Shown one piece after another: positions 11,431 through 47,743 of a stretch of 47,743 nucleotides of DNA (position 1 is the first letter of the stretch; each line of letters starts with the position of its first letter). The DNA lies in the NCBI GenBank assembly GCA_012839355.1, contig DUNK01000038.1, positions 1 through 47,743 of the forward strand, in the 5' to 3' direction. The DNA comes from Acholeplasma sp. (lineage in GTDB: Bacteria > Bacillota_I > Bacilli_A > Acholeplasmatales > UBA5453). The notes beneath the pieces were generated by a model. The model was not told the DNA's origin and ran no database searches. It saw only the letters and a list, made by a program, of their open reading frames with translations. Both the position numbers and the translations under genes were made by a program.

Positions 11431-12347
11431 TATTTCACACCCTTTAAAGCTTCTCTAACATTTCCTTTATGTTTAACATCTAGTATTTCTTCTATTTTAT
11501 TTATATCTTCTTCTTTTGACATTATCGCAAAAATCGCATATTTAACTGATTTATATTTTTCAACATATTTTTGCGCAACTTCATTACTAACTCCTGTAAC
11601 ATCTTTTACAATTCCAATCGCTCTACTTACTAATTTTTCATTTGACATTTGAACATCAATCATTAGGTTTTCATAAACCTTACCTAATTTAGTCATTGCC
11701 CCAGTTGAAATCATATTTAAAATTAACTTTTGTGCTGTTCCTGATTTCATTCTTGTTGAACCTGTTAGTGGTTCAGGACCTGTGATTGCTTCTATCTTAT
11801 ATTTAGCAACGCTTGCAATTAACGAATTTTCAGAAGTTGTTACACACGCTGTTTGAGCACCGATTTCATTTGCATATCTAACTGCCGATACTGCATATGG
11901 TGTTCTTCCACTCGCTGTAATTCCAACAACAAAATCTTTATTTGTTAAATTTTGTGCTTTTAAGTCAACAACTGCCGCTTCTTCCGAATCTTCAGAACCT
12001 TCTAACGCATCTCTTAACGCCTTATCTCCACCAGCAATTAACCCAACAACCATCTTTGGGCTAACACCAAACGTTGGTGGACATTCACTAGCATCTAAAA
12101 CACCAATTCTACCACTTGTTCCAGCACCAACATAAAACAGTCTCCCGCCGTTTCTAAAAACTTCAGTAACCGCATCAACAACTAAGGCAATTTTATCTAA
12201 TTCTTTTTCGATTGCTAATGGGACTAGTTTATCTTCGTTATTAAAAAGACGCAACATTTCAATTGTTGGTAATGTATCTATATTTTTTGTGCGTGGATTT
12301 CTTTGCTCAGTACTAATTTTCGAAATATCTACTTGTTTCTTTGCCAC
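11430..12347 (-). CDS. murQ: N-acetylmuramic acid 6-phosphate etherase MurQ
   Basis: 305 aa SIS-domain lyase that cleaves the lactyl ether of MurNAc-6-P, giving GlcNAc-6-P and D-lactate. Family hallmarks seen: the N-terminal STEQRNPRT, the sugar-binding GAGTSGRIGVLDASECPPTF, and a second SIS half with GITASGRTPYAVSA and EPLTGSTRMKSGTAQK. Length is standard. Starts with GTG (12347), GGAG about 8 bases upstream. It overlaps pepS downstream and follows murK directly. The D-lactate it makes matches the D-lactate dehydrogenase at the head of the cluster. Confidence 0.97.
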   Translation of the reverse strand: MAKKQVDISKISTEQRNPRTKNIDTLPTIEMLRLFNNEDKLVPLAIEKELDKIALVVDAVTEVFRNGGRLFYVGAGTSGRIGVLDASECPPTFGVSPKMVVGLIAGGDKALRDALEGSEDSEEAAVVDLKAQNLTNKDFVVGITASGRTPYAVSAVRYANEIGAQTACVTTSENSLIASVAKYKIEAITGPEPLTGSTRMKSGTAQKLILNMISTGAMTKLGKVYENLMIDVQMSNEKLVSRAIGIVKDVTGVSNEVAQKYVEKYKSVKYAIFAIMSKEEDINKIEEILDVKHKGNVREALKGVK

Positions 12348-13259
12348 TTATAAGTCTCCTTCAATTTTCTTTTTCGCTAAAACGTAAGCTCCATAAACTG
12401 GTTCTCTACCATATAAATCAAAGCGAACATTAGGTATTGCTTTATTAACCTCTGCTAAAATTGTTTCATTTACATATAAAGCCTTTAACGCAAATGATCC
12501 ACGTAATGCTACCACAACTGGACTTTTTTTCACATATACTTTATATGCTTTAATGATTTGTTCAGCTAAAAGTTTACCTTCAGCAATTAAAAGTTCTTTT
12601 ACTTTTGGATCACGATTAGAGACATCTTGAATTTCTAAAGATAATTGAGCAAGAGTACTTTTATCAGTATTATAAACATATTCTACTAATTGTTTAGGGT
12701 TTTTTAAACCGATTACTTTAATTAATCTCTCAGACATAACAGAAAATGATGATTTAGTTTCATATTCATCAATTAGTTGCTTTAACGCCGCTATAACAAA
12801 ATGATAAGCAGAGCCACCATCTCCTAAAATATGACCCCAACCGCCTAAACGATTAATTTCATTTTCATGTTCAATCATAATAACTGAACCTGTTCCGCCG
12901 ATTGCCATAATTAAAGATTCATCTCTTGTTTTTTCAATTGCATATAAGCCAATTGTAGCATCTACATCTAAACTAGCTTTGCAGTCAAATTGCTCTTCAA
13001 TTTCTCTTAGGAAATCTGCAGTATCGCTTAATCTTGATGCGCCTGCAACACCCATTTGAATAAAGACTTTCTTTTCTTTTCCGATACCTGAAACTAACTT
13101 CATAATTAGTTCCATAATTGTTTTCTTTGACTTTTCAACATTAACACTAAAATTAGAAAATCCAACTTGAATTCTCTTTAGTTCATTTCCTTCATAGTCA
13201 TAAACTACTCCTAATGTTTTTGTTCCGCCGCCGTCGATTCCGATAATGTAATCATACAT
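12348..13259 (-). CDS. murK: N-acetylmuramate/N-acetylglucosamine kinase (MurK-like, BadF/BadG family)
   Basis: 303 aa ASKHA-fold kinase. Phosphate 1 motif IGIDGGGTKT (residues about 6-15), an adenosine-side GGTGSVIM, and GGWGHILGDGGSAY in the middle place it in the BadF/BadG/BcrA ATPase family. Members next to murQ (Clostridium MurK) phosphorylate MurNAc and GlcNAc at O6, replacing the PTS import route. It directly precedes murQ, supporting this role over generic GlcNAc kinase. Its ATG overlaps the end of nagZ copy 1. No signal peptide, so cytosolic. Confidence 0.88.
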   Translation of the reverse strand: MYDYIIGIDGGGTKTLGVVYDYEGNELKRIQVGFSNFSVNVEKSKKTIMELIMKLVSGIGKEKKVFIQMGVAGASRLSDTADFLREIEEQFDCKASLDVDATIGLYAIEKTRDESLIMAIGGTGSVIMIEHENEINRLGGWGHILGDGGSAYHFVIAALKQLIDEYETKSSFSVMSERLIKVIGLKNPKQLVEYVYNTDKSTLAQLSLEIQDVSNRDPKVKELLIAEGKLLAEQIIKAYKVYVKKSPVVVALRGSFALKALYVNETILAEVNKAIPNVRFDLYGREPVYGAYVLAKKKIEGDL

Positions 13260-14817
13260 ATAATGGTAACACTCCTTTTGGTTTTATTTTCCCCAAAAGA
13301 TATTCTTTTAGAGTATTGATAGAATTTTGTGTGTATTCATATAGACAAACATAATTTTTAATTTCTGGCACTAAATAATGATCATAAGGATTTCTTAGTG
13401 AAATAACATGTAATTCCGCCTTTAATTTATTTAGTATTTTTACAAGTTCTACTTGTTGTAAGTATACATTTGAATTATATGTAGTTAAAATCACTTGATC
13501 ATATTTTGAAGCTAGTGCTTCTAATTCTTTAATTTCTTCTTTTGTTGGATTTAAACTCGCTAATTGATAATCCATATTTGGTAGATGCTTTCTTAAAATA
13601 CCAATCGTACTATGTTCACCATCAGTATGGTCTGCGCCACTAGTTGAAATTGGAAGTTGGCCGATAAATAATGTTTTGCCTTTTTCTTTGTATACTTCCC
13701 CTTTAACAAGTGTTAACGCATCATTAACTGCTTGTTGAGCAAAATCTAAATGCTTTTTGTTTCCAACTATATCTTTAACATCTCCAAATTTATTTGTAAG
13801 AATACTTAAATTTAAATCTTTTTTAAACTTTAAAACTCTCTCTACTCTCTCATCTAATACTTCCATAGAAATAGTCCCATCTAATACAGCCTTTTTAAGT
13901 TCTTTTACTGCACCGATTTGTTGTTCTTCATGGTGACAATATAATAGTAAGTTTGCTCCTGCTAAGACTGCTGGTACAGATGATTCAATAGCTCCATATT
14001 TATTTAAGATAGCTTTCATTTCCATTCCATCTGTAAAAATTAACCCTTCAAAACCCATCTTTTCTCTTAGCAAGTCTGTCAAGGCTTCTTTAGAAAGTGT
14101 TGCTGGCATTCCGTTTGTTAAGTGTTTATAAACGATGTGAGCGCTCATAATTGCTTTTAAATCATCATTAATTGCCTTTTCAAACGGCGCAAGTTCAACT
14201 TCCTTTAATCTATCCATTTCAAAATTAACACGCGGCAAATCTAAGTGTGAGTCCACATTAGTATCACCATGCCCCGGAAAGTGTTTGCCTGTTGCAATAA
14301 CTTTTGTTTGCATACCCTTAATAAAGTTATTAGCATATAAACTAACTCTCTCTGCTGTATCACCAAAACTTCTTACACCGATTACAGGATTAAGTGGGTT
14401 ATTATTAACATCTAATACAGGCGCGAAATTAACATTAATTCCTAAAGCATCTAATTCTTTTGCCATATATAAACCAGATAAATAGGCATTTTCTGGGTTA
14501 TTTGTAGCACTTAATGTCATCGCTCCAGGAAAGACGGTTGCACCATTATAAAGTCTTGTAACCATTCCACCTTCTTGATCCGCCGTAATGAACGCTGGTA
14601 TACCAATATATTTCATCATTGCTTTTTGAATATTTTGGTTTAAATTAAATAATTTTTCAGGTGATGTAATATTTCTTGTGAAAAGTAAAATATTTCCTAA
14701 CTTATATTCTTTAATTAGACCATCTATTCTTTCGCTATATTCGTCTTCTGGAAAACCAAAAACGATCAACTGACCGATTTTTTCATCTAAAGTTAAATCT
14801 TTTACCGTTTTCTTCAT
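13252..14817 (-). CDS. nagZ: Beta-N-acetylglucosaminidase NagZ, copy 1 (GH3)
   Basis: 521 aa GH3 enzyme that removes non-reducing GlcNAc from murein fragments. KHFPGHGDTNVDSHLDLP carries the Asp-x-His acid/base dyad typical of NagZ; FTDGMEMKAI carries the nucleophile Asp. A C-terminal GH3 alpha/beta domain follows (residues about 340-521), as in Bacillus NagZ. There is no signal peptide, unlike the secreted Bacillus enzyme, so hydrolysis is predicted in the cytosol. Start set at ATG 14817: GGGAG abuts the upstream ATG (14823) but is 6 bases from this one. The stop is TGA, showing that TGA terminates here. It is tandem with a diverged paralogue. Confidence 0.93.
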   Translation of the reverse strand: MKKTVKDLTLDEKIGQLIVFGFPEDEYSERIDGLIKEYKLGNILLFTRNITSPEKLFNLNQNIQKAMMKYIGIPAFITADQEGGMVTRLYNGATVFPGAMTLSATNNPENAYLSGLYMAKELDALGINVNFAPVLDVNNNPLNPVIGVRSFGDTAERVSLYANNFIKGMQTKVIATGKHFPGHGDTNVDSHLDLPRVNFEMDRLKEVELAPFEKAINDDLKAIMSAHIVYKHLTNGMPATLSKEALTDLLREKMGFEGLIFTDGMEMKAILNKYGAIESSVPAVLAGANLLLYCHHEEQQIGAVKELKKAVLDGTISMEVLDERVERVLKFKKDLNLSILTNKFGDVKDIVGNKKHLDFAQQAVNDALTLVKGEVYKEKGKTLFIGQLPISTSGADHTDGEHSTIGILRKHLPNMDYQLASLNPTKEEIKELEALASKYDQVILTTYNSNVYLQQVELVKILNKLKAELHVISLRNPYDHYLVPEIKNYVCLYEYTQNSINTLKEYLLGKIKPKGVLPLYV

Positions 14818-14835
14818 TAACATCTCCCTCTACAA

Positions 14836-16401
14836 TTATATTTTAACTGGTAATTTTCCTTGCGGTTCTAAATTACCTTTTAAATAACTAATTAAAGCAT
14901 TTACTGAATTGCTAGTATATTCGTATAGACAAACATAGTTTTCTATTTCCGGCACTAAATGTAAGTCATATGGGTTTCTTAGTGAAATAACATGCAACTC
15001 TTTTTTAGTTTTAAGAAAAGTTTTAATAAGTTCAACTTGTCCTTCATACATATTAGAGTTATAAGTTGTAAGAATAACTTGATTGTAATAACAACTTTCA
15101 CTAACCAATTTCAATATTTCTTCTTTATTAGGATTAACATCACTAACTATAAACTTATATTCAGGCAATGCTTTCTCTAATTTAATAACTGCACTATCTT
15201 CTCCAGAAGCTTCTTCAACTAAAGTTAAAGCTTTTGGTTTTTGAATAATAAATAGTGTTTTATCTTTTTTATTAAATCTTTCACCTTTAACTAAGGTCAG
15301 TGCATTGTTAATAACTTCTTTAGCGAAGTTTTGATGTTCTTCTTTGTTGATTCTTTCTTTAATCTCATCAAAAGATTTTTCTAAATATTTCAAACTGATT
15401 TCTTTTTTATGTTTTAAAATTCTTTTAACTCTATCATCTAAAACTTCCATTGGGATAGTTCCCTCTAAAACTGCTTCTTTAACATAATTAAATGCTGCTA
15501 TTTGTTGTTCTTCATAATGACAATATAGTAACAAATCAGCCCCCGCTAAAACTGCGGTCACGGCTGACTTAGCTGCCCCATATTTATCATCGATAGCTTG
15601 CATTTCCATTCCATCAGTGAAAACTAAACCTTTAAACTTATATTTATTTCTTAATAAATCTATTAAAACTTCTTTTGCAAGTGTCGCAGGATAATCTTTA
15701 TTTAAAACTGGATAAATAGCATGGCTTGTCATAACACCCTTAACATTAGCGTCTATTGCCTCTTTGAATGGTACAAACTCAACTTTTTCTAATCTTTCTA
15801 AATCATGTTCAACTACCGGCAATCCTAAATGTGCATCAACCGCAGCATCACCTTTGCCTGGGAAGTGTTTAGCCGTTGCGAACACTTTTGTTTGTATACC
15901 TTCAATAAACTTTTTGCCGTACTCTGCAGCAACTTTCTGGTTATCACTATAACTTCTTACACCAATACCTGGATTTAAAGGGTTTGTATTAACATCTAAT
16001 ACTGGTGCAAAGTTAACATTTAAGCCTAAAGCGTCCATTTCTTCAGCCATATATAAACCATTTAAATAAGCATTGTTAATATCTCCTGTTGCACTTAATG
16101 TCATCGCACCAGGAAAGATAGTTGCTCCTTTAAACAATCTTGTAACCATTCCGCCTTCTTGATCAATACAAATAAAAGCTGGAGTGTTTAACTTTTCCAT
16201 CATGTTCTTTTGGATTTCTTTGTTTAAATTAAAAAGATCTTCCATTGAACTGATGTTTCTTGTGAATAAAATAATATTGCCAAACTTATATTTATTAATT
16301 AACTCATCAAGTTTTTCTGTATAGTGTGTTCCATTAAAACCTACTACAAACAGCTGGCCTATTTTTTCATCCAAAGACATGTTTTTTAAATCTTTAATCA
16401 T
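14836..16401 (-). CDS. nagZ: Beta-N-acetylglucosaminidase NagZ-like, copy 2 (GH3)
   Basis: 521 aa, same architecture and length as the downstream copy, with clearly related sequence throughout (tandem duplication). KHFPGKGDAAVDAHLGLP keeps the Asp-x-His dyad but has Lys where copy 1 has His (KHFPGHG) and Ala for Thr; FTDGMEMQAI keeps the nucleophile. The changes near the sugar site suggest a shifted preference, for example GlcNAc-anhydroMurNAc versus GlcNAc-MurNAc, or peptide-bearing versus bare sugar (inference). No signal peptide. Starts with ATG overlapping the 3' end of namZ by 8 bp. Confidence 0.9.
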   Translation of the reverse strand: MIKDLKNMSLDEKIGQLFVVGFNGTHYTEKLDELINKYKFGNIILFTRNISSMEDLFNLNKEIQKNMMEKLNTPAFICIDQEGGMVTRLFKGATIFPGAMTLSATGDINNAYLNGLYMAEEMDALGLNVNFAPVLDVNTNPLNPGIGVRSYSDNQKVAAEYGKKFIEGIQTKVFATAKHFPGKGDAAVDAHLGLPVVEHDLERLEKVEFVPFKEAIDANVKGVMTSHAIYPVLNKDYPATLAKEVLIDLLRNKYKFKGLVFTDGMEMQAIDDKYGAAKSAVTAVLAGADLLLYCHYEEQQIAAFNYVKEAVLEGTIPMEVLDDRVKRILKHKKEISLKYLEKSFDEIKERINKEEHQNFAKEVINNALTLVKGERFNKKDKTLFIIQKPKALTLVEEASGEDSAVIKLEKALPEYKFIVSDVNPNKEEILKLVSESCYYNQVILTTYNSNMYEGQVELIKTFLKTKKELHVISLRNPYDLHLVPEIENYVCLYEYTSNSVNALISYLKGNLEPQGKLPVKI

Positions 16402-17527
16402 ATAGGTGATACTTCTCCTTGATTTTCAAAAACTCTTTTTTATCTTTAGCAAACTTTGCTTTTATCTCATCAATAGTAAGAGTGTTTTCTCTAATAAAAT
16501 CATCGCCAACATTTAAGTCAATCATTCTATTGCCAAACTCAGTCCATGGCGGGTTATAACTAAACTCTTCATGTAACTTTTCTATTTCTTTTAACATAAT
16601 CATTCCAGCAATCACTGGTTCAAACTTTTTATAGTCTGTTACATATATTTCAACACCCGAACACATAACACCTTTATGCTTACTTGAGACAGGTGTAAAA
16701 TATAAAGTTTTAAACTTAGCATGAGGTATCTTTTTACTAAAAATCTCAACTAATTCTTTTGATTTAAACCAAGGTGCGCCGATAATTGAAAATGGCCTAG
16801 TTGTGCCTCTTCCCTCGCTAACGTTCGTTCCTTCAAAGATACAAGTTGCTAAATAAACAAATAGTGAATCAACTGTTGGTAAGTTTGGTGAAGGTAGGAT
16901 AAATGGCAAATTATAATCATACCATGTAGAATCTCTTTTATAACCTGACATTTTAATAACTTCTAAGTCACAATTAATACCAAACTCATTATTAAATAAA
17001 TGCGCTAACTCTCCAACAGTTAAACCATATCTTTGCGGGATTTCATAATAGCCAATAAATGAACGATATTTTAAGTTTAATATGTTCCCTTCTACTTCCG
17101 GTCCTACTGGGTTAGGTCTGTCAAATACAACTACTTTTTTGCCATGTTCTTTTGCAGCTTCCATTGTATGAGCCAAACTATAAATATATGTATAAAATCT
17201 TGCACCAACATCTTGAATGTCATAACAAATAATATCTACATCTTCTAACATTTCTTTAGTTGGTTTACGGTGTTGACCGTATAATGAATAAACCATAATT
17301 CCAGTTTCTTCATCAACATAATTATGAATTACATCTCCATCTTGAAGATTTCCTCTAAGTCCATGTTCTGGTGAAAAAAGTGCGGTTAGGTTTGTATGTT
17401 CATTTAAAATATCTACTGTCGCTCTAAAGTTTTGATCGGTTCCAGACGGGTTAGTCAGTAAACCCACTCTTTTTCCTTTAAATAAATCTAAATGTTTATT
17501 TAAGTTTTCTATTCCATATTTAAACAC
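16394..17527 (-). CDS. namZ: Exo-beta-N-acetylmuramidase NamZ (DUF1343, GH171)
   Basis: 377 aa DUF1343/GH171 protein. Conserved features: RVGLLTNPSGTD, LFSPEHGLRG with the Glu-His pair, the YDIQDVGARFYTYIYSL block and FDRPNPVG. The Bacillus enzyme (YbbC) releases MurNAc from the non-reducing end of MurNAc-GlcNAc. Here it has no signal peptide, implying action in the cytosol on imported fragments. GTG start with GGAG about 9 bases upstream. It overlaps the DUF624 gene by 8 bp upstream and nagZ copy 2 by 8 bp downstream, mirroring nagZ-namZ adjacency in Bacillus. Confidence 0.93.
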   Translation of the reverse strand: MFKYGIENLNKHLDLFKGKRVGLLTNPSGTDQNFRATVDILNEHTNLTALFSPEHGLRGNLQDGDVIHNYVDEETGIMVYSLYGQHRKPTKEMLEDVDIICYDIQDVGARFYTYIYSLAHTMEAAKEHGKKVVVFDRPNPVGPEVEGNILNLKYRSFIGYYEIPQRYGLTVGELAHLFNNEFGINCDLEVIKMSGYKRDSTWYDYNLPFILPSPNLPTVDSLFVYLATCIFEGTNVSEGRGTTRPFSIIGAPWFKSKELVEIFSKKIPHAKFKTLYFTPVSSKHKGVMCSGVEIYVTDYKKFEPVIAGMIMLKEIEKLHEEFSYNPPWTEFGNRMIDLNVGDDFIRENTLTIDEIKAKFAKDKKEFLKIKEKYHLYD

Positions 17528-33480: not shown

Positions 33481-34659
33481 CTATTTTATTAGTCCCGGAA
33501 TGTAAACATATAAAGTATGTGTTCTACTTTCTCCATTGTATGTAATGGTCAAATCATAACTAACCGTCACGGCTTTATATGGAACTTTATTTAATCTTCC
33601 ATCATTAGTTAAATATTCAGTGTTATGAGAATTAATACTTAACATTAAACCTGGAAAATTGTACTCTCTGTAGTATTCTTTCTCAACTAAATCATAGAAA
33701 TATCCAGTTAAGCCTGCATTAATCATTGATTGCGGACAAACCTTTCCTGAGAAGTCCTGGTGGAACTTAACATTACCCATATGATCATTGGCTGGTAAGT
33801 TAAATTGTTTTGATAGTTTTGCAGAAAGTCTTGCAGTTCTATGCCAGATGCTCATTATATTATCACCATGTGCAACACTTGTTTCAATACCGATACCGTT
33901 TCTGTTTCCACCACCAATACCGCCTTGGTTTCCATCGCGCCATGGACTACCTGCAACAGTGCTTCCGTCACCAGCATGATATGCAACTTCTTCTAACGGA
34001 ATATGTTGATATATTTTTTTATCGTCAACTGTATAATGCCATGAAGCATATCTATCTGTTCCATTTAAATAACCATTCATCAAATAATTAGCATGCCATA
34101 ATGCACCACCGCCAACATCTGTGTTTGCAGTTTCATGAACAACTACATATTGAACATACTCAGGATTATAAATCTGCTCATCCGGTAAGTTCGGCTTTAA
34201 TCTCGGCGCTGCTGAACCTGGTCTTATTTGTGGACATTCACCAGGAATCATCATTGATAAATCAATTTCAATATCGCCAATTAACAATTTTGAAACACTA
34301 TCTAAGTATTCAGCTGTATAATCAAAATTCACACCATAAACATTCCAACTACGGAAAATAGAATAATTGACCATCGTACTTATCGCATAGTCAAACGGAT
34401 CATTCATATCAAGTTCATCAAACACTACAAACTTAAATTCTTGTCTAAGCGTATTGTCCATTTCTAAATAAACATCAATTGTTACTGGACCTGCGCCTAC
34501 TAATGAGACTAAACCAGTTTCACTAATTGTTGCAATATTCTCATCTGAAGTTTCATAAATTACTTTTTCATCTCTTATTTGATAAGGTACAACATTGACA
34601 TTTAATTGGAAAGTATTGCCAACATAAAAGTCAGAATATGTGCGATTAACCGGAACGAA
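33481..34659 (-). CDS. N-acetylmuramoyl-L-alanine amidase (Amidase_2) segment, cut off from its N-terminus by an in-frame TAA
   Basis: 392 codons open from directly after the TAA at 34660-34662, in the same frame as the upstream lipoprotein. It starts with an Ig-like Big_2 domain (VPYQIRDEKVIYETSDENIA), then a linker, then an Amidase_2 domain with zinc ligands in YVVVHETAN and VKFHQDFSGKVCPQ (His and Cys 8 apart as in T7 lysozyme/PGRP), plus SWHYTVDD and NRNGIGIETSVAHG; a C-terminal Ig-like tail follows. It cuts the MurNAc-L-Ala bond, stripping stem peptides. No ATG occurs before 34461, which lies inside the Ig domain and has no Shine-Dalgarno; on its own it has no signal peptide. Best seen as the 3' part of one gene. 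Confidence 0.8.
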   Translation of the reverse strand, partial: FVPVNRTYSDFYVGNTFQLNVNVVPYQIRDEKVIYETSDENIATISETGLVSLVGAGPVTIDVYLEMDNTLRQEFKFVVFDELDMNDPFDYAISTMVNYSIFRSWNVYGVNFDYTAEYLDSVSKLLIGDIEIDLSMMIPGECPQIRPGSAAPRLKPNLPDEQIYNPEYVQYVVVHETANTDVGGGALWHANYLMNGYLNGTDRYASWHYTVDDKKIYQHIPLEEVAYHAGDGSTVAGSPWRDGNQGGIGGGNRNGIGIETSVAHGDNIMSIWHRTARLSAKLSKQFNLPANDHMGNVKFHQDFSGKVCPQSMINAGLTGYFYDLVEKEYYREYNFPGLMLSINSHNTEYLTNDGRLNKVPYKAVTVSYDLTITYNGESRTHTLYVYIPGLIK

Positions 34660-36999: not shown

Positions 37000-38589
37000 C
37001 TATTTTCTATTAGCAGATTGACCATATTTTTTAAGTCCTTCTATTAAATTTGAAACCCCTGGTGTGAACACTGAAACTTCAATCGTTTCAATTGAAGATT
37101 GTTTATAAGATGCAAAATCACCAAAGGCTTGTATCTCAAGTTCATAAGTTCCATAATCAAAATCAAACTGATAAGAGTTTGTTGTTGTTCTATACTTTTC
37201 TCTACCATTAACTCTAATCGTATAATATTCAGCGTTAGGAACTGCATCAAATTTTAACATTTTATCTTCGCCAAAATAAAAGTGACTAGGCTTAGTTAAT
37301 ATTTCTCTTGTATCTGGATATGGTGAAGGTGGCAATTGTGCTTCTAAGTTTCCATATAAGAAGAACATACCATTAGCAACGCTTCTTAAACTAAGCGGAT
37401 TATCAGATGGTCTATTCATTGTGTCATAATAGTCAGTTTCAGGGTTATAAAATAACATCGTAGAAGATCCACCACCATCAACATTTATTGCAGTTTCTGC
37501 ACCGAAATAAAGCATTAAATAACTAAGTTGTTCATAATCCATTCCTGGTATGTTTTCTAACTTAAACCTACCATCAATTGTTACAAAGAAAACTGTCCCA
37601 TCAGCTTTTACACCAACAGCTGTACGAGGGTGAACATCCGTGTTATCTGAAACAACTCTCTCTCCATTAACTACTAACATTTGTCCGCCTGCACAACCCG
37701 ATCTAATTCCTTCATGAATTCCACCTAAAACATTATGAACGATTACTGTTTCTTCTTCTGTAATTAATCCTTCACTAAATATATCTTCACCCATTAAAAG
37801 AAAATCACCGCGTTCTAATGTAACATCTTCTGTAGTAATGTAGTTAAGTGTTCCTTCAGCAAAATATCTACCTACACTACCTTGTGTAGTTTTAACATCT
37901 ATTCCTTTAAATACCATCTTTGGCTCAGGACTAGAAATAGTATCAGTGTGATTCCAGAAAAATGCTGTAACTTCGCCTTCTTCCGGTAAACGGTTAAAGC
38001 CTGCAACATTAATTTCTTTTTGTTTTTTAGAACCAGCATTATCTAAAACTATTACTTGATAGCCTTTATATTCTGGTGGTCCAATTGTTACGCTTCCATC
38101 ATCGTGAAAACCAATCAAAGGTCTAGAATGATCCCCTTCATGAATAGTTCTATATTCAATAATATGTGAACCAATCGTCATACCTAAATAGTTAGGGTCC
38201 TCATGTCTAATGATGTAAAAGTCGCCATTCACCGCTGATACTACTTTTGCTTGGTATTGGAATCTTTGATTTATCACAAATGTTTGACCACGAATGTGAC
38301 CCATTCCAAAACCGTGAGGAATATAATTATCTCCTACTACTGCAAATAAATTTTCATCAGTAAGAATATTAGCAGCGGTATAGTTAATTTGTTGTTTAAC
38401 TATTCTTGTTCCTGTTCTAACTGAACCTGTTATTCTTCGGTGTTCTACTCCATGTAAAACCTTAGAAACATCAGTATCAATTATTAACTCAAAATACTCT
38501 GGCTCTTGTGCTCTAATACTTAATGGAAAGATTAAGGCTACAACAAAAAGAGCCACTAAACAAAACTTTTTAAAGTAGTTTTTAAGCAT
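37000..38589 (-). CDS. Secreted phosphodiester glycosidase (NAGPA domain)
   Basis: 529 aa with a signal peptide (LVALFVVALIFPLSIRAQ). The NAGPA domain covers about residues 230-420: GCAGGQMLVVNGERV, HPRTAVGVKADGTVFFVTIDG and the hallmark INVDGGGSSTM. The family removes alpha-GlcNAc from GlcNAc-1-phosphate diesters. A fibronectin/Ig-like C-terminal part follows (VPNAEYYTIRVNGREKYRTT). In a murein-degrading cluster a likely target is the GlcNAc-1-P-6-MurNAc linkage of wall teichoic acid (inference). Well-placed GGAGG start; overlaps the upstream lipoprotein gene by 8 bp. Confidence 0.88.
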   Translation of the reverse strand: MLKNYFKKFCLVALFVVALIFPLSIRAQEPEYFELIIDTDVSKVLHGVEHRRITGSVRTGTRIVKQQINYTAANILTDENLFAVVGDNYIPHGFGMGHIRGQTFVINQRFQYQAKVVSAVNGDFYIIRHEDPNYLGMTIGSHIIEYRTIHEGDHSRPLIGFHDDGSVTIGPPEYKGYQVIVLDNAGSKKQKEINVAGFNRLPEEGEVTAFFWNHTDTISSPEPKMVFKGIDVKTTQGSVGRYFAEGTLNYITTEDVTLERGDFLLMGEDIFSEGLITEEETVIVHNVLGGIHEGIRSGCAGGQMLVVNGERVVSDNTDVHPRTAVGVKADGTVFFVTIDGRFKLENIPGMDYEQLSYLMLYFGAETAINVDGGGSSTMLFYNPETDYYDTMNRPSDNPLSLRSVANGMFFLYGNLEAQLPPSPYPDTREILTKPSHFYFGEDKMLKFDAVPNAEYYTIRVNGREKYRTTTNSYQFDFDYGTYELEIQAFGDFASYKQSSIETIEVSVFTPGVSNLIEGLKKYGQSANRK

Positions 38590-39920: not shown

Positions 39921-40916
39921 TTAAGTCAAATACTCTCTTATTCTATTTCGATAAGGAAAAACATTATTGTTTGCCCTTTTTGGATGAACACCATTTGTTA
40001 ATAAAACAAAACCTTTATTTATGTTTAAATCAATCCACATGTTACAGCCCGTAAAACCCGTATGCATAATAACTTTATCAATATCGTCTACTGGTTTATC
40101 CCAACCTAAACTGCGGTTAGTTAATCCGTATCTGCCTTCTTTTAGGATTCTTGATTTAAACATTTCTTTAACTGTTTCATCTTTTAAAACAAACTCCTGT
40201 TTTAAGATGCTTTGAATAAATTTCGCTATATCTTTAGCGGTTGAAAAAAGCCCTGCGTGTCCCGCTAAACCGCCCATCGCAAAAGATTTTTCATCGTGCA
40301 CTCTGCCGACTAAATAGCCATTATAAACATCATCTTCACGCTTTTCAGTCGGAGCTGCTCTTAAAACATCTGGCCTGTAACTAGAATCTTTCATGTTTAA
40401 CTTGCTAAAGATTACTTTTTCTGCAGCTTCGTTAATTGGCATTCCATAAAGTTTCTCGACTATTAGTCCTAGCAATATATAACCAATATCAGAATAAACT
40501 ACCTTTTCTCCCTTTTCATAAATCAAATCAAACTCATAAACTTTATTGATTACTTCTTCTCTGTTTTTAAGAGTAGCCGCTTTGGGAATATCAGCAGGTA
40601 ATCCTGAACTATGTATTAATAAATCGTATATTACTACATCGCGATGCTTAAACCTCGGTAGAATATCACTAATTTTGGCATCTAAAGAAAGCTTTCCTTG
40701 TTCAATTAAATTCATTATCAATGTTGTTGTAGAAATGACCTTAGTTAAAGAGGCTACGTCATATATTTCTTCCCCATTATTTTTTACCAATGGCTCATAT
40801 GATTTGTAACCTACATAACCACACTTTATTTCATCCTTAGTAACAACACAATATTGTCCGCCAGGAAAAGCTTTTTCTTTAACGCCTTCTAAAAGAATCT
40901 CTTTTATTTTATCCAT
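39921..40916 (-). CDS. Beta-lactamase-family serine hydrolase (AmiE/YbbE-like)
   Basis: 331 aa of the class C beta-lactamase/D-peptidase/esterase superfamily. SxxK motif SLTK near residue 56 (VASLTKVIS), Tyr motif YSDIGY, and HTG (HTGFTG) in place of KTG. No signal peptide, so cytosolic. In Bacillus subtilis the murQ operon encodes a member of the same superfamily, YbbE, annotated AmiE, that frees peptide from MurNAc. The shared context suggests the same role on imported muropeptides, though substrate cannot be read from sequence. The ATG overlaps the upstream stop (TAATG). Confidence 0.82.
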   Translation of the reverse strand: MDKIKEILLEGVKEKAFPGGQYCVVTKDEIKCGYVGYKSYEPLVKNNGEEIYDVASLTKVISTTTLIMNLIEQGKLSLDAKISDILPRFKHRDVVIYDLLIHSSGLPADIPKAATLKNREEVINKVYEFDLIYEKGEKVVYSDIGYILLGLIVEKLYGMPINEAAEKVIFSKLNMKDSSYRPDVLRAAPTEKREDDVYNGYLVGRVHDEKSFAMGGLAGHAGLFSTAKDIAKFIQSILKQEFVLKDETVKEMFKSRILKEGRYGLTNRSLGWDKPVDDIDKVIMHTGFTGCNMWIDLNINKGFVLLTNGVHPKRANNNVFPYRNRIREYLT

Positions 40917-43720
40917 TATTTTCTTTTCTTAACCAATACTAAAATTGTTAAACCACCAACCAAACTTACTCCTAAGATGATGCTACCAACGATAATCGCA
41001 ATTTGTCTATAGTTAGATTCTTTTTCGCCTACAACGATATGATTATCTAAACCTTCGTCAACAGCATTAAGATTTGTCAGCATCGCAACAATTTCTTCTC
41101 TAGAACTATTTTCATTATCTAATAATGCTTGTGCCTCGTTGATAAGTTCATTAAGTTCTGCCTTTTTCTCAGGCGTAACATATTGGTAACCTTTTCTTAA
41201 CTCTTCAGGATTTGTGTTTTCACTTGCTTTAACCTTGTCTACGCGTTTTTTAAATTCTGCTAATGCCACTTCTAAATTATCTGTTACAACGCTAATATCT
41301 TCTTCTTCAAATACTGCATTTAATGTTATTGAAGCCGTTACAACAGTGTTAAAATCGTATAAATTATCACCTAAATACCAACCAGTAAATGTATAACCTT
41401 CTTTAGTTGGGTTTGCTGGTTTTGCAACAGGCCCTGCTTCTTCTAATGTTACAGTTTCTGTTCTATCTTCACCATACACAAATGTTACTACAATTTGTGG
41501 GTCTTGTTGACCTTGGAAATAACTATTAAGTAAAGTGGTTTCTACATCTTTTAATTCGTAATAAACTGCATTAATATCAGGAGAAACCGATGTTTCATCA
41601 GCAATAATTGTTTCAGCAGCTGCAATAATATTATCAACTGCCGTTAAAACTGTTTTAGGAGCGAAGTATTGTCCTTTTGGTAATTCACTCGCTTGTTTAC
41701 CTTCAGAATCTTGAATTAGGTTTCTTCTAGTTCTTAACTGATTAACCGCTCCTTGTAATATCGATACAGCTTGATCTCTATTTGGGTCAAATGAACCTTG
41801 ATAAACAGCATCTTTAAATGCATTAAATGCGTTTTGTAAAATAACTTTTTCTTCAACAAATACAGACATCCTAAATCTATTATCAACTACCCCTTCAGCT
41901 TCTTCGATTGCCGCGTTAATCGCTGCTAAAGCAGCTGCAGATGCATATTTTTTACCAAGTATTAAATCATCTGGTTCTAATCCTTCATCAGATTGAACTT
42001 CGTTACTTGTGATATAGTTATTCACTTGAGTAATCAAGTCTCTGATTTCTTGTTTCACCGCAAGTATCTCATCGTTATCTAAAGGAAGAACCTCTACATC
42101 ACTAGCCCATGTAAAATCAACAGGCTTCGTCCAATAATAGTTTTCAAGTCTTTCAATAGTGCTAACAATTTGTGGTATTGCACGATTGAATGTTCTAAAA
42201 CTAAATGTTACATGCCCCGCTACTTCTGCATATTGACTAATATATCTTAACTGTTCAACAAAAATATCTTCATTTGTCCATGGCGTGTTATCTGTATATC
42301 TATAAAATCCCAATCCTACAAGTAAGTCAACGTTTACATCACTAACAACATCTACCCACCAGTCAACCAATACCTCAAACGCTGATGATGTAGCACCAAA
42401 ATCCCAATATAATTGTGGAAGAATATAATCTAACCACTCCTCTTTTACCCATTTTCTTGTATCTGCGAATAAAGAAACATATGATTGCCAACCTGTACTA
42501 TTTGATCCATCCGGGTGTGTAGATTTATTCGCCCATATTCCGCCAGGACTAACTCCAAATTTAACTTTTTTACCATTAGTTATATTAAAATCTTCAACGA
42601 TATCATGAACGTTTTTAATCATCATATCAACATTATTTCTACGCCAATCTGCTAATGTGCTAATGTTTGTTGGGTTGTAGTTAATAAATGTTTGCGCGTC
42701 TTCTGTTGTTGTTACATAGAAATAGTCATCAAAGTGAATTCCATCAACATCTGGATAATTTGTAAGTACTTCTTCAATAACATCGCTTAAATATTGTCTA
42801 ACCTCAGGTCTACCTGGGTCTAAAATAAATGTTGCTGTACCACCAGATGGTGCGTTAGTTTGCTTTAAAACTAAATGCGGATTTTTCTTAGCGAAGTTAT
42901 CTGCATGTAATGTCGCTAACATCTCCGCATGAGTTGTTTCAGCAGGCATATTAGCAATTCTATATGGGTTTAACCATGCATGTAACTCTAAACCGCGCTT
43001 GTGAGCTTCATCAATTGTAAATCTTAAAATATCCCAATCTAAACCTTCACCTTGTGCTCCTTTAATAAACCTTGAATAAGGCGCTAATTCAGATGGATAC
43101 ATTGCATCATTCATTGATCTTATTTGGAAAAAGATTGTGTTCATGTTTAGACTTTGAACTCTATTTAAAATAGAAATAATCTCATTTTTATATTGTTGAT
43201 CATCAACCCATTGATTTAAGTCAATATTAGCAACCGTTGACACCCAAACACCACGTATTTCTTTAGTTCTTTCTGTGTAGATAGGTAATTCAATCGGTAA
43301 ACCAGTATCCTTATGTTTAAGAATTTCATTATTTCTTATTACGTGCGGATATGTTTCAACAACATCAATATCTACCCTAATATTTATAGCTTGTTCTGCA
43401 CCATAAACACCGGCTTTCAAACTTCTATATCTTAATCTATAGTTACCTTTTCTTTGAATTAAGATTGGTTCATTATAAGTAGTCCAACTGCTCGGTGGAA
43501 TACCTTGAAATAATTGATATACAATACTAACTCCAGAAACTGAACCTGTGAACCCTAATTCAATTTCAATCGTTGATGTATATACATCATTTACTGCGTC
43601 ATACTCGCCTGTAATAGTATGAACTGGCGTTGGTGGTTCTCCTTGCGCACTAAGATTACCAACCGCTATTAAAACAAAACTTAATAATATAGTTAATACT
43701 AACAATCTAAATTTCTTCAT
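40916..43720 (-). CDS. Surface-anchored GHL10 (DigH/YngK-like) glycoside hydrolase
   Basis: 934 aa. Signal peptide (LLVLTILLSFVLIAVGNLSAQ), an Ig-like N-terminal region (about 30-140), then a GHL10/DUF187 catalytic barrel (about 150-530): REVRGVW-type start EIRGVWVSTV, FFQIRSMNDAMYPS, LELHAWLNPYR, VDGIHFDDYFY, PQLYWDF. FIVAR-like helical modules (about 590-740), an InlB/Flg_new repeat (KEGYTFTGWYLGDNLYDF) and another helix module follow, then a C-terminal membrane helix with basic tail (VKKRK). E. coli DigH, same family, cuts peptide-free ('denuded') murein glycans, matching the amidase nearby. Confidence 0.88.
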   Translation of the reverse strand: MKKFRLLVLTILLSFVLIAVGNLSAQGEPPTPVHTITGEYDAVNDVYTSTIEIELGFTGSVSGVSIVYQLFQGIPPSSWTTYNEPILIQRKGNYRLRYRSLKAGVYGAEQAINIRVDIDVVETYPHVIRNNEILKHKDTGLPIELPIYTERTKEIRGVWVSTVANIDLNQWVDDQQYKNEIISILNRVQSLNMNTIFFQIRSMNDAMYPSELAPYSRFIKGAQGEGLDWDILRFTIDEAHKRGLELHAWLNPYRIANMPAETTHAEMLATLHADNFAKKNPHLVLKQTNAPSGGTATFILDPGRPEVRQYLSDVIEEVLTNYPDVDGIHFDDYFYVTTTEDAQTFINYNPTNISTLADWRRNNVDMMIKNVHDIVEDFNITNGKKVKFGVSPGGIWANKSTHPDGSNSTGWQSYVSLFADTRKWVKEEWLDYILPQLYWDFGATSSAFEVLVDWWVDVVSDVNVDLLVGLGFYRYTDNTPWTNEDIFVEQLRYISQYAEVAGHVTFSFRTFNRAIPQIVSTIERLENYYWTKPVDFTWASDVEVLPLDNDEILAVKQEIRDLITQVNNYITSNEVQSDEGLEPDDLILGKKYASAAALAAINAAIEEAEGVVDNRFRMSVFVEEKVILQNAFNAFKDAVYQGSFDPNRDQAVSILQGAVNQLRTRRNLIQDSEGKQASELPKGQYFAPKTVLTAVDNIIAAAETIIADETSVSPDINAVYYELKDVETTLLNSYFQGQQDPQIVVTFVYGEDRTETVTLEEAGPVAKPANPTKEGYTFTGWYLGDNLYDFNTVVTASITLNAVFEEEDISVVTDNLEVALAEFKKRVDKVKASENTNPEELRKGYQYVTPEKKAELNELINEAQALLDNENSSREEIVAMLTNLNAVDEGLDNHIVVGEKESNYRQIAIIVGSIILGVSLVGGLTILVLVKKRK

Positions 43721-43725
43721 ATTTT

Positions 43726-44934
43726 TTACCTTCCTTTGTTAAATAACTTTTTAAGTTCAAGCATTCCTTCTTTTTCAGGCCCATCTTGAACGAATGTTTT
43801 GTATGTAAAGAAAATGTTTCCTTGTACTTCTTTAAATTGGTTTGCATATTTTACTTGATTAACAATCTCCATCTTATCTTCATACTGCCCATCTCTTCCT
43901 AAACGGTAAGCACCATGACCTATATAAAGTTTTACATTAGTTCCTTTACATAAATCAACCCACCAATTAGTCATATCGGCAAACGGAGCCTTCTCAAAAG
44001 CAAAATCCCAATAAAGTTGTGGAACTATATAATCAATAAATCCTTCTTTAACCCATCTATATGAGTTAGCGTGTTGGCTAATCCCTGATTCATAGACTCC
44101 ACCAACGTTTCTTGAACCGTTAGGATCAGATAAGTTAGTCTTCCAAACTCCAAACGGACTTACACCAAATTGAAGTTTTGGATTATACGCTTTTACCGCA
44201 TCATAAACGCCTTTAATTACCTCATCAACTTGACGTTCTCTAAAATCATCTAACGATTGATTTTTATCTTTTCTTTTTTCATACTCCTCGATATCATCAT
44301 GCTCATGATGTAAAGGCTTATAAGGATAAAAATAATCATCAAAATGTATCCCATCAACATCATAATTCTTAATAATCTCCATCATAGAATCAATAATATG
44401 TTGTTTAACTTCGGCCTTTGCAGGATTTAAAATTATCAATCCTTCAGTATCTAAAACAAGTAAATCTTTTCTTCTTTTAGCCAAATTTAAATCACTTGCT
44501 GATTCTAACCATTCGTCTTTATCATGGTTTGCCATAGAAACACGATACGGATTACACCACGCGTGTAATTCTATATTGTTTTTATGTGCTTCCTTCACTA
44601 TCCAATCAAGCGGATCAAATAGCAATGGATCTCCCTCTTTACCAACTAAATAACGACTAGTAGGATTTAATTTTGATTTATAATAAGCGTCATTATTAGT
44701 TCTAACTTGAAAAAATATCGTATTAATATTGTAATTTTTAGCCGTTTCAATTATTTCTTTTAATTTTTCTTTGTATTTTTTAAGATCTAATTGGTTAGGC
44801 ATATCAATATTTACAACATTTGAAACCCAAAAAGCTCTGACTGGCTTTTCATGATATTTTTTTGGAATAACAACTTGATTTCCATCCCAATCTAAAATCG
44901 GCTTATTAGGTTCTTTAAATGTGTATAATTTCAT
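43726..44934 (-). CDS. GHL10 hydrolase without signal peptide
   Basis: 402 aa, essentially only the GHL10 barrel: ARAFWVSNVVNIDMP-like start (residue about 30), FFQVRTNNDAYYKSKLNP, IELHAWCNPYR, VDGIHFDDYFYPY and PQLYWDF. Closely related to the neighbouring anchored enzyme but with no signal, stalk or anchor, so predicted cytosolic. It may trim longer imported glycan chains, or be exported by an unknown route. AAAGGGGG precedes ATG at 7 bases. A 5-base gap separates it from the anchored copy. Confidence 0.87.
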   Translation of the reverse strand: MKLYTFKEPNKPILDWDGNQVVIPKKYHEKPVRAFWVSNVVNIDMPNQLDLKKYKEKLKEIIETAKNYNINTIFFQVRTNNDAYYKSKLNPTSRYLVGKEGDPLLFDPLDWIVKEAHKNNIELHAWCNPYRVSMANHDKDEWLESASDLNLAKRRKDLLVLDTEGLIILNPAKAEVKQHIIDSMMEIIKNYDVDGIHFDDYFYPYKPLHHEHDDIEEYEKRKDKNQSLDDFRERQVDEVIKGVYDAVKAYNPKLQFGVSPFGVWKTNLSDPNGSRNVGGVYESGISQHANSYRWVKEGFIDYIVPQLYWDFAFEKAPFADMTNWWVDLCKGTNVKLYIGHGAYRLGRDGQYEDKMEIVNQVKYANQFKEVQGNIFFTYKTFVQDGPEKEGMLELKKLFNKGR

Positions 44935-44997: not shown

Positions 44998-46143
44998 CTA
45001 TTTAGTTATAACATTAGATATTTGTCCTAATATTACATCCTTTTTTGCGCCTGTAGCACTTTTTACGTTGCTTGACTTACCGCTCAACGTCTCATTTCCT
45101 AATATTACAAACGCAAGAGCTTCTTTTGCATCAACATTTAAGCCATAAAAAGAAGTTGTTGTTACTTTAACTTCTTTTAAATACTCGCTTAGTAATTTTA
45201 GTAAATAAGCATTGTGCGCTCCTCCACCCGATGCAATTAATTCAAAACCTTCTAATTTATCACATATTAATTTACAACCCATACTAATTGTTTTGGCTGT
45301 AAAATGTGTTGCTGTCGCTATTAAATCTTCTTTTTTTTCGTTTTTATACTTGTTTAAAATCTCTTCTGAGAAACTACTCCCAAAATCTTCTCTACCAGTA
45401 GACTTTGGATAAGGCAATTTAAAATATTCATTGTTTACCAGTTCTTCAAAAAGCGGCTTAATTAGTTCCCCTTTTTTAGCAATATCTCCATTATTATCAT
45501 ATGGTAAATCATAAAGTTTCTCCATAAAATAATTAATGATCATATTGCCAGGCCCTGTATCAAAGGCGATTACATCATCTAAACTTCCGCCTTTTTTCAA
45601 ATATGTAACATTGGCTATTCCACCAATATTTAACATTATTCTTTCAACCTTATCACTACTATATAAACAATAATCAGCATAAGGTACTAAAGGTGCTCCT
45701 TGGCCTCCTACTGCCATATCTGCCGTTCTAAAATTGCTAATAGTTGTAATATTTAAATTATTTGCAAGGACTGAGCCATCGCCTAACTGTAGCGTAGAAG
45801 GCCTTAAATCACCTATTTCTTTTGGTAAATGATAAATCGTCTGTCCGTGTGAAGCGACAAATGATATATCTTCGCTCGTTAAACCGTTCGCCTCCAACAA
45901 ACTTTTTGTTTGTCTAGCAAACATTTCCGAAATTTCAAAATTTAAACTTGTAATTTCTTTTACATTGCTAGTATTTAAATTTAGTTGAGATATAATTCTT
46001 CTTTTTATCTCTTTTTCAATTGGATAAGTTTTAAAATCAACTATTTTTACTTTAGTGTCTTTAAAATTTTCCTTAATTTGTACGAGTACTACATCAACAC
46101 CATCTAGTGATGTGCCGCTCATAATCCCTATCGCTAATTTCAT
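44998..46143 (-). CDS. anmK: 1,6-anhydro-N-acetylmuramic acid kinase
   Basis: 381 aa ASKHA kinase that opens and phosphorylates anhydroMurNAc to MurNAc-6-P. N-terminal IGIMSGTSLDGVDVVLV is the AnmK signature; ASHGQTIYHLP, LNIGGIANVTYL, FDTGPGNMIIN and ASGGGAHNAYL follow in the family order. ATG at 46143 is chosen because GAGG is 6 bases upstream; a TTG at 46155 overlaps that site. Substrate anhydroMurNAc comes from lytic transglycosylases, showing the organism can use fragments shed by other bacteria. Own promoter and a cre-like site precede it. Confidence 0.96.
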   Translation of the reverse strand: MKLAIGIMSGTSLDGVDVVLVQIKENFKDTKVKIVDFKTYPIEKEIKRRIISQLNLNTSNVKEITSLNFEISEMFARQTKSLLEANGLTSEDISFVASHGQTIYHLPKEIGDLRPSTLQLGDGSVLANNLNITTISNFRTADMAVGGQGAPLVPYADYCLYSSDKVERIMLNIGGIANVTYLKKGGSLDDVIAFDTGPGNMIINYFMEKLYDLPYDNNGDIAKKGELIKPLFEELVNNEYFKLPYPKSTGREDFGSSFSEEILNKYKNEKKEDLIATATHFTAKTISMGCKLICDKLEGFELIASGGGAHNAYLLKLLSEYLKEVKVTTTSFYGLNVDAKEALAFVILGNETLSGKSSNVKSATGAKKDVILGQISNVITK

Positions 46144-46166
46144 ATTAAACCTCAACTTTTCTTAAA

Positions 46167-46180
46167 TAAAAGCGCTTTCT
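46167..46180. promoter_or_regulatory. cre-like site at the anmK transcription start
   Basis: Minus strand AGAAAGCGCTTTTA matches the palindromic cre TGAAAGCGCTTTCA at 12 of 14 positions, including the whole central AAAGCGCTTT. It lies just downstream of the -10, a repressing position. Confidence 0.5.
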
Positions 46181-46186
46181 ATCTTT

Positions 46187-46216
46187 ATTATAACATATAG
46201 CTTAATATTGAAACAA
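46187..46216 (-). promoter_or_regulatory. Promoter of anmK
   Basis: Minus strand extended -10 TGTTATAAT (hexamer 46187-46192) with TTGTTT (46211-46216) at 18 bases, in the 85-bp gap between the dehydrogenase and anmK. It allows anmK and downstream enzymes to be made separately from the etf-dehydrogenase unit. Confidence 0.65.
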
Positions 46217-46228
46217 TATTACTTATGA

Positions 46229-47626
46229 CTATATATCTACGATTTTGCTAGGATTCAAGATGTTTTTAGGGTCAAACAATCTCTTAATTCCTTTCATTAA
46301 TTCAAGTTGTGTAGATCCAATTTGAGTCGCTAAATATTCTTTTTTCAAATAACCTACAGCATGTTCTCCTGATGTTAATCCACCAAGACTAAATGCTTTA
46401 CTGTACATTAAATCAAAGGCTTCATCTAATTTTTCTTCAAAGACTTTTAAGTCCATATCATCTTTACAAAAGTAAATATGTAAATTCCCATCGCCAACAT
46501 GACCAAAATATGGCATTCTTATGCCTAACTTTTTACTTACTTCTTCAGTGTACTCTAAATATTCAGGAATCACTGCTCTTGGTACAACAACGTCTAACTC
46601 ATCCATTAAAGGCGTTGAAGCTTTAATTGCTTCTAAGAAAGCACCTCTAATTGTCCAAACGCTACTGTTTCTCTCATCAGTATCAATTAAATAAACATCA
46701 ATTGCTCCTAATTCCATACATAACTCACTTGCTCTATCAATATCTTTTCTAAGTGCGTCTTTGCTAGTACCATCATAACTTAAAAGTAAATACGCATCAT
46801 AAATATCATGTGGCATGTGTTTGCCTAAAAACTCTTTACTATATTTAAGTGATGGTTGGTTCACATATTCAACCGCTGTTGGAGTTACATGTTTCTCAAT
46901 TAATTGTGCTGCAGCTTTTACTGCAGTTGCTGTATTTTTAAATGGAACTAATAAAGATGTTGAATATTTTGGTAATGATGTTAGTTTCAGTGTTGCTTCA
47001 ACAATAATTCCTAAAGTTCCTTCCGTTCCAATAAACAATTCTTTAAGTGGATAACCTGAAGAGTTTTTAACTACTTTACCACCAACATTGATTACTTCTC
47101 CGTTCGCTAAAACAACTTCTAAACCTCTCACCCATTCTCTTGTAGTACCATATTTAATCGCTCTCATACCACCAGCATTTGTTGAGATTGTTCCGCCAAT
47201 CGTCGCAGTTTTTTCACCTGGATCTGGCCCATAAAATAGATCATGTTTTAAAACTTCTTCATATATATCAAGCATTAATACGCCTGGTTGAACTTTCAAA
47301 GTCATATTTGTGTGGTCAAGTTCAAGAATTTTATCCATTCCTGATAAATCTAATAAAATTCCACCTAAAACTGGAACTGCACCACCAACTAAACCTGTAC
47401 CAGCACCTCTTACTGTAACAGGAATATTTTCTTTATGAGCATATTTCATCACTTTAGAAACTTGCTCTTTATTTTTAGCAACAACTCTCACTTCGGGATA
47501 AGCAACTATTAATCCTATCTCATCTTTAGCGTATTCTTCAGCAATCTCATCGCCAACATAAGTATTGTTGTCGCCAAATATTTCTTTTAACGCTTTTACG
47601 TCTTTATCGGTAATTTTCTTATACAT
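46229..47626 (-). CDS. lctD: FAD-linked D-lactate dehydrogenase (GlcD/LctD family)
   Basis: 465 aa. FAD_binding_4 (PCMH) domain with TVRGAGTGLVGG (residues about 71-82) and ATIGGTISTNAGGMRAIKYG, then FAD-oxidase C domain with MPYFGHVGDGNLHIYF and LTSGEHAVGYLKKEYL. The family oxidises D-2-hydroxy acids such as D-lactate or glycolate. The gene 2 bases upstream is etfA, the arrangement of the Acetobacterium LctBCD lactate dehydrogenase-Etf complex, which couples D-lactate oxidation to NAD+ with ferredoxin. GGAGG at 9 bases supports the ATG. MurQ in the same cluster makes D-lactate, so D-lactate is the most likely substrate. Confidence 0.88.
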   Translation of the reverse strand: MYKKITDKDVKALKEIFGDNNTYVGDEIAEEYAKDEIGLIVAYPEVRVVAKNKEQVSKVMKYAHKENIPVTVRGAGTGLVGGAVPVLGGILLDLSGMDKILELDHTNMTLKVQPGVLMLDIYEEVLKHDLFYGPDPGEKTATIGGTISTNAGGMRAIKYGTTREWVRGLEVVLANGEVINVGGKVVKNSSGYPLKELFIGTEGTLGIIVEATLKLTSLPKYSTSLLVPFKNTATAVKAAAQLIEKHVTPTAVEYVNQPSLKYSKEFLGKHMPHDIYDAYLLLSYDGTSKDALRKDIDRASELCMELGAIDVYLIDTDERNSSVWTIRGAFLEAIKASTPLMDELDVVVPRAVIPEYLEYTEEVSKKLGIRMPYFGHVGDGNLHIYFCKDDMDLKVFEEKLDEAFDLMYSKAFSLGGLTSGEHAVGYLKKEYLATQIGSTQLELMKGIKRLFDPKNILNPSKIVDI

Positions 47627-47627
47627 C

Positions 47628-47743
47628 TTAAGCTACCTCCTCTAATAATTTATTAAGTTCAGGCAATATTTCGTATAAATCACCAACAATTGAATAATGA
47701 CTAACATTAAATAGTTTGCAGTCTGGGTCATTACTAATACTAA
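47628..47743 (-). CDS. etfA: Electron transfer flavoprotein alpha subunit, C-terminal fragment
   Basis: Minus-strand frame entering from the right edge, 38 codons ending TAA at 47628-47630. The peptide contains SNDPDCKLFNVSHYSIVGDL and ends YEILPELNKLLEEVA. This is the conserved EtfA C-terminus (N-x-D-P-x-A-x-I-F ... Y-G-I-V-G-D-L-x-E-x-L-P-x-L), part of the FAD domain. The stop is 1 base before the dehydrogenase ATG, whose Shine-Dalgarno lies inside it, so the two are coupled. Whether it carries the N-terminal ferredoxin domain of confurcating types is outside the window. Confidence 0.85.
   Translation of the reverse strand, partial: SISNDPDCKLFNVSHYSIVGDLYEILPELNKLLEEVA

Follow-up and report, generated by a model that had tools for sequence, protein, structure and literature searches.

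A putatively confurcating D-lactate dehydrogenase of the lctBCD type most likely oxidises the D-lactate that MurQ releases from N-acetylmuramic acid (MurNAc) 6-phosphate in Acholeplasma sp. and many of its relatives, with ferredoxin reduced by pyruvate:ferredoxin oxidoreductase (PFOR) as the second electron donor. The stretch on which this reading is based, hereafter the window, is an entire contig (C37, 47743 bp) from an assembly of 964 kb in 41 contigs that is estimated to be 86% complete. At one edge it holds the last codons of etfA, encoding an electron-transferring flavoprotein (ETF) alpha subunit, and after a gap of one base lctD, encoding a flavin adenine dinucleotide (FAD)-dependent dehydrogenase subunit. 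The same contig carries murQ and a set of other genes for murein breakdown.

The fate of the lactyl group after MurQ has rarely been settled, and NAD+-linked oxidation of lactate is uphill for an anaerobe. We propose that the pair in the window is the end of an etfB-etfA-lctD unit that works in the breakdown of MurNAc taken from other bacteria. Hydrolases, some secreted and some cytoplasmic, would together with kinases form MurNAc-6-phosphate, which MurQ would cleave inside the cell to N-acetylglucosamine 6-phosphate and D-lactate. LctD would convert the D-lactate to pyruvate, and the electrons would pass via FAD to a confurcating EtfAB, where, joined with those of reduced ferredoxin, they would yield 2 NADH. 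PFOR would consume the pyruvate and restore exactly the ferredoxin spent, so that the net conversion would be D-lactate + CoA + 2 NAD+ -> acetyl-CoA + CO2 + 2 NADH. The stoichiometries of LctBCD and PFOR are established, and combined they balance in ferredoxin. We infer from sequence that D-lactate is the physiological substrate, and likewise the stereospecificity, the confurcation and the ferredoxin balance in these organisms.

A first-pass annotation of this DNA had recognised the C-terminus of EtfA and an FAD-linked D-lactate dehydrogenase at 46229-47743, and both positions and identities are borne out. Among solved proteins the closest relative of the window's LctD is the LctD of Acetobacterium woodii (7qh2_C; E 6e-167, 559 bits, 53% identity), with a glycolate oxidase as runner-up at 226 bits, and the EtfA fragment of 37 residues finds its best match in LctC (7qh2_A, E 8e-7). 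Furthermore, all ten residues of the LctD substrate pocket, taken from PMC9232219, are identical in the window protein (Leu80, Arg328, Leu332, Glu344, Asp346, His377, His384, Tyr386, Glu422 and His423). That the dehydrogenase acts instead on glycolate or another 2-hydroxy acid, a preference already considered in the first-pass annotation and favoured by glcD (TIGR00387) being the best NCBIfam model, appears very improbable: the score of 375 bits lies far under the cut-off of 568, the setting is one of D-lactate release, and the pocket is of the LctD type, unlike that of GlcD-like paralogues. A paralogue of this kind (about 40% identity) is found in some relatives (loci L062-L068) with no adjacent ETF, and its pocket differs from that of LctD at Leu80, Glu344 and Tyr386.

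The missing subunits can be read in relatives, for which the neighbourhoods of 70 LctD loci across the class were inspected. In the sister genome G158 (contig JAAYKO010000035.1), a metagenome-assembled genome of the Acholeplasmataceae whose LctD is 71% identical to that of the window, etfB and etfA are both present and complete, in the order PIG-L, etfB, etfA, lctD, murR, anmK, two GHL10 proteins and a PBP4B-like protein. The sister EtfA scores 428 bits against LctC and at most 237 against other solved ETFs; the corresponding values for its EtfB are 296 bits against LctB and at most 194. An ETF gene adjoins lctD at 66 of the 70 loci, the remaining four being three in Acholeplasma and one on a truncated contig. 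The first-pass annotation had proposed to look beyond the contig end for an etfB beside etfA and for an iron-sulfur domain at the N-terminus of EtfA; contigs of relatives that continue past this point do show etfB-etfA-lctD, and the EtfA of these relatives carries a four-cysteine ferredoxin domain. Its exact Cx17CxxCxxC motif occurs in 58 EtfA proteins of relatives, and six further full-length ones have the four cysteines with x16 or x18 spacing; contig ends truncate two more. The EtfB glycine that permits binding of the beta-FAD, a mark of bifurcating ETFs (PMC12630350), is present in all 62 EtfB proteins of relatives (each of at least 200 residues). These features bear on the alternative that a canonical ETF hands the lactate electrons to butyryl-CoA dehydrogenase without ferredoxin, a coupling demonstrated in Fusobacterium nucleatum (PMC12630350). 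We regard it as very unlikely here, given the bifurcating glycine and the ferredoxin domain, and given that no acyl-CoA dehydrogenase was found in the window's genome (86% complete), in the sister or in genera g2 and g4.

The tie to murein sugar breakdown, also put forward in the first-pass annotation, is supported both by the presence of murQ in the same window and by a linkage that recurs in eight families. It takes two forms. Arrangement 1 (families f1, f2, f16 and f24) runs etfB-etfA-lctD-murR-anmK, and in most cases genes for a GH4-like protein, GHL10 proteins and PBP4B come next. In arrangement 2 (f5, f9, f12 and f19) the order is typically namZ-nagZ-nagK-anmK-murQ, an alpha/beta hydrolase of about 245 residues, and etfB-etfA-lctD. 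Genes of arrangement 2 often overlap by a few bases, which indicates one operon; in f5, f9 and f19 murQ lies immediately, or one gene, upstream of etfB, with frequent overlaps. Hence murQ and etfB-etfA-lctD, overlapping or almost contiguous, likely share one operon in several families. Outside family f22 a murein gene lies within 9 kb at 49 of 61 loci, several of the remaining loci being short contigs. Where the cluster recurs as arrangement 1, murQ is about 33 kb away; in the window's order, 15 genomes that have both genes on one contig show 31-39 kb between lctD and murQ, and two others a shorter distance; the kept spacing argues that the long cluster of the window is conserved.

The distribution of the two proteins across genomes points in the same direction. 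In the order (160 genomes) MurQ is present in all 33 genomes with LctD versus 6 of the 127 without it, and in the class (395 genomes) in 51 of 54 versus 51 of 341; two of the three exceptions with LctD and no MurQ in the class are assemblies only 61% and 82% complete. A search of the phylum beyond the class sample added one genome with a match. The LctD tree places the window among the arrangement-1 genomes (branch support 100). Neither f22 nor A. woodii belongs to the murein-linked set, which as a whole has a support of 92.

An alternative reading is general D-lactate utilisation, with the lactate imported or derived from fermentation and the murein neighbourhood incidental. This is the role of LctBCD in A. 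woodii and in anaerobes of the gut (PMC9232219, PMC12630350), and in f22 the complex stands alone or behind a GntR-type regulator, with a genuine murein gene at none of nine loci. We consider this reading unlikely for the window, in view of the two distinct murein arrangements across eight families, one of them with overlapping murQ, and of the near-complete restriction of LctD to genomes with MurQ; nor did the list of open reading frames and the Pfam scans of the window reveal a lactate permease or racemase. An RpiR regulator near the f22 locus L132 was considered as a murein link and rejected, being only 27% identical.

Several points weigh against the proposal that the unit is a confurcating outlet for MurQ-derived lactate. 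Kinship of the genomes inflates the significance of the co-occurrence of LctD and MurQ (Fisher p < 1e-27). The etfB and most of the etfA of the window organism lie outside the assembly; a domain search of this 86%-complete assembly found no ETF domain elsewhere, and the break of the contig inside etfA, not true absence from the genome, is the most likely reason why these parts are missing. For the same reason the view that etfA and lctD are the first genes of the cluster does not hold, their position being merely the contig edge. The occurrence in f22 of the complex without nearby murein genes means that the enzyme itself is not murein-specific. In the window's clade, moreover, lctD and the murein genes may have separate transcripts: arrangement-1 relatives show, on reading by eye, a terminator-like hairpin behind lctD and a TATAAT with a palindromic cre-like site ahead of murR. 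Separate regulation of the dehydrogenase unit and the murein genes, a concern raised in the first-pass annotation, is thus at odds with the one likely operon of several families and is favoured by the hairpin and separate promoter-like site of the window's own clade. Nearly all arrangement-1 relatives have the regulator gene murR between lctD and anmK; the window lacks it there. The gap at 46156-46228 retains a TATAAT and AGAAAGCGCTTTTA, resembling the site before murR in relative L034, and this fits a loss of murR with its promoter remaining in front of anmK. In the window the cre-like pattern is no more frequent than expected by chance, and the putative operator is kept as a lead only.

A further point of this kind comes from Acholeplasma genomes of genus g5 (G002, G004 and G007; loci L060, L059 and L058, with L070 listed alongside), which keep lctD-murR-anmK with the LctD pocket unchanged. 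In these three genomes, each 99% complete, the locus has neither etfB nor etfA, and the rest of the genome holds no ETF alpha domain either; the G007 locus matches contig NZ_FUZK01000001 of Acholeplasma oculi, a further relative. As no ETF is present, LctD must use another electron acceptor there, and confurcation is not required everywhere. Oxygen is a possible acceptor, by analogy with the Ldh of F. nucleatum, which alone has lactate oxidase activity (PMC12630350). The ETF-less clusters offer a natural comparison with the complete units.

The murein genes of the window are most likely catabolic and their substrate of external origin. The order has been described as largely peptidoglycan-deficient (PMC10868615), and folC alone resembles a Mur ligase gene in the window's genome, so that no wall would be made and the cell would have to obtain murein from its surroundings. 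A gene set for MurQ-dependent MurNAc catabolism is present in the window, comprising murQ, anmK, a nagK-like kinase, nagZ and namZ (Table 1). The window's own genome encodes a full-length PFOR, as do 11 of the 12 other genomes of the family. A search for FeFe hydrogenase in the window's genome and the sister gave no match, leaving hydrogen as an electron sink unsupported here. On balance, though with little more than even confidence, we favour the broader view that wall-less, peptidoglycan-feeding Bacilli run a self-balanced lactyl route without hydrogenase, Rnf or respiratory chain, in which Etf-Ldh would be the standard anaerobic step of MurNAc use.

Table 1. Features of the window related to D-lactate oxidation and murein breakdown
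Feature	Position	Strand	Remarks
etfA (lctC-like), final 37 codons	47628-47741, truncated by contig end 47743	(-)	best match LctC of A. woodii; relatives have the full gene with ferredoxin domain at the same position
lctD, FAD-dependent D-lactate dehydrogenase subunit, 465 aa	46229-47626	(-)	FAD_binding_4 and FAD-oxidase_C; 53% identity to A. woodii LctD
operator-like (cre-like) palindrome AGAAAGCGCTTTTA	46167-46180	(-)	TATAAT at 46187-46192; between lctD and anmK
anmK, anhydro-MurNAc kinase	44998-46155, likely ATG start 46143	(-)	NF007142, 468.9 bits (cut-off 435)
GHL10 glycosidase-like protein, cytoplasmic form	43726-44934	(-)	without signal-like N-terminus; kept in cluster
GHL10 glycosidase-like protein, secreted form	40916-43720	(-)	with signal-like N-terminus
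beta-lactamase/PBP4B-like protein	39921-40916	(-)	kept in cluster
N-acetylmuramoyl-L-alanine amidase (Amidase_2)	33481-34461	(-)	
namZ, exo-beta-N-acetylmuramidase	16394-17527	(-)	NamZ_N 8e-84, NamZ_C 5e-43
two nagZ-like GH3 beta-N-acetylhexosaminidases	13252-16401	(-)	13252-14823 tested directly; 14836-16401 judged by sequence and neighbours
BadF/NagK-type sugar kinase	12348-13259	(-)	
murQ, MurNAc-6-phosphate etherase, D-lactate source	11430-12347	(-)	TIGR00274, 377 bits (cut-off 302)

Several neighbours of the unit recur. The pair of GHL10 proteins is kept in the cluster across families, and from this context its substrate would be murein. A phosphodiester glycosidase of the NAGPA type (37000-38589 in the window; also at L032, L034 and L037-L060) is a recurrent neighbour, often immediately before etfB, and genera g1 and g4 have a gene for a PIG-L type de-N-acetylase ahead of etfB (L032, 16822-17547; L034, 2221-2943). 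The alpha/beta hydrolase between murQ and etfB, often overlapping, is conserved at L102, L107-L114, L116, L119, L121-L125 and L135.

LctBCD, MurQ and their chemistry are already known; what is newly recognised, judged from the genomes, is the strongly conserved metabolic setting of the enzyme. All three subunits have their closest solved relative in the A. woodii complex (PDB 7QH2). This complex shares with the units of relatives the order etfB-etfA-lctD and the Cx17CxxCxxC of EtfA, and with the window protein the pocket; it belongs to a stand-alone lactate operon, whereas here the unit lies with murein catabolism genes and a predicted internal source of lactate. In F. nucleatum (PMC12630350) a D-lactate dehydrogenase is likewise encoded with an ETF, but the canonical ETF and the butyryl-CoA dehydrogenase partner of that system do not fit here. 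Corynebacterium glutamicum engineered for uptake and MurQ consumes the MurQ-released lactate after transient accumulation (PMC6165865), in that case by a quinone-dependent, respiratory Dld. The nearest precedent is Fidelibacter multiformis, an anaerobe on exogenous muropeptides in which D-lactate from MurNAc-6-phosphate has been proposed to be oxidised to pyruvate by a D-lactate dehydrogenase (PMC11652737); it belongs to another phylum and rebuilds its wall from the fragments, and the passages searched mention neither Etf coupling nor a murQ operon. Hence the first-pass impression that the connection was undescribed is only partly right, as the oxidation of MurNAc-derived D-lactate as such has a precedent. 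On its Etf-coupled operon form, a literature search on MurQ together with ETF, which left most subscription journals outside its reach, returned nothing relevant, and the recent papers on lactate use that were checked make no mention of peptidoglycan.

If the proposal is true, Etf-Ldh would be a so far unrecognised step of MurNAc catabolism in these lineages. The conserved operon of MurQ and a confurcating lactate dehydrogenase would answer, for many Bacilli, both what becomes of the lactyl group and how its uphill oxidation is driven. It would also account for the way in which bacteria without a wall obtain energy from peptidoglycan, and would provide a genomic marker for murein feeders.
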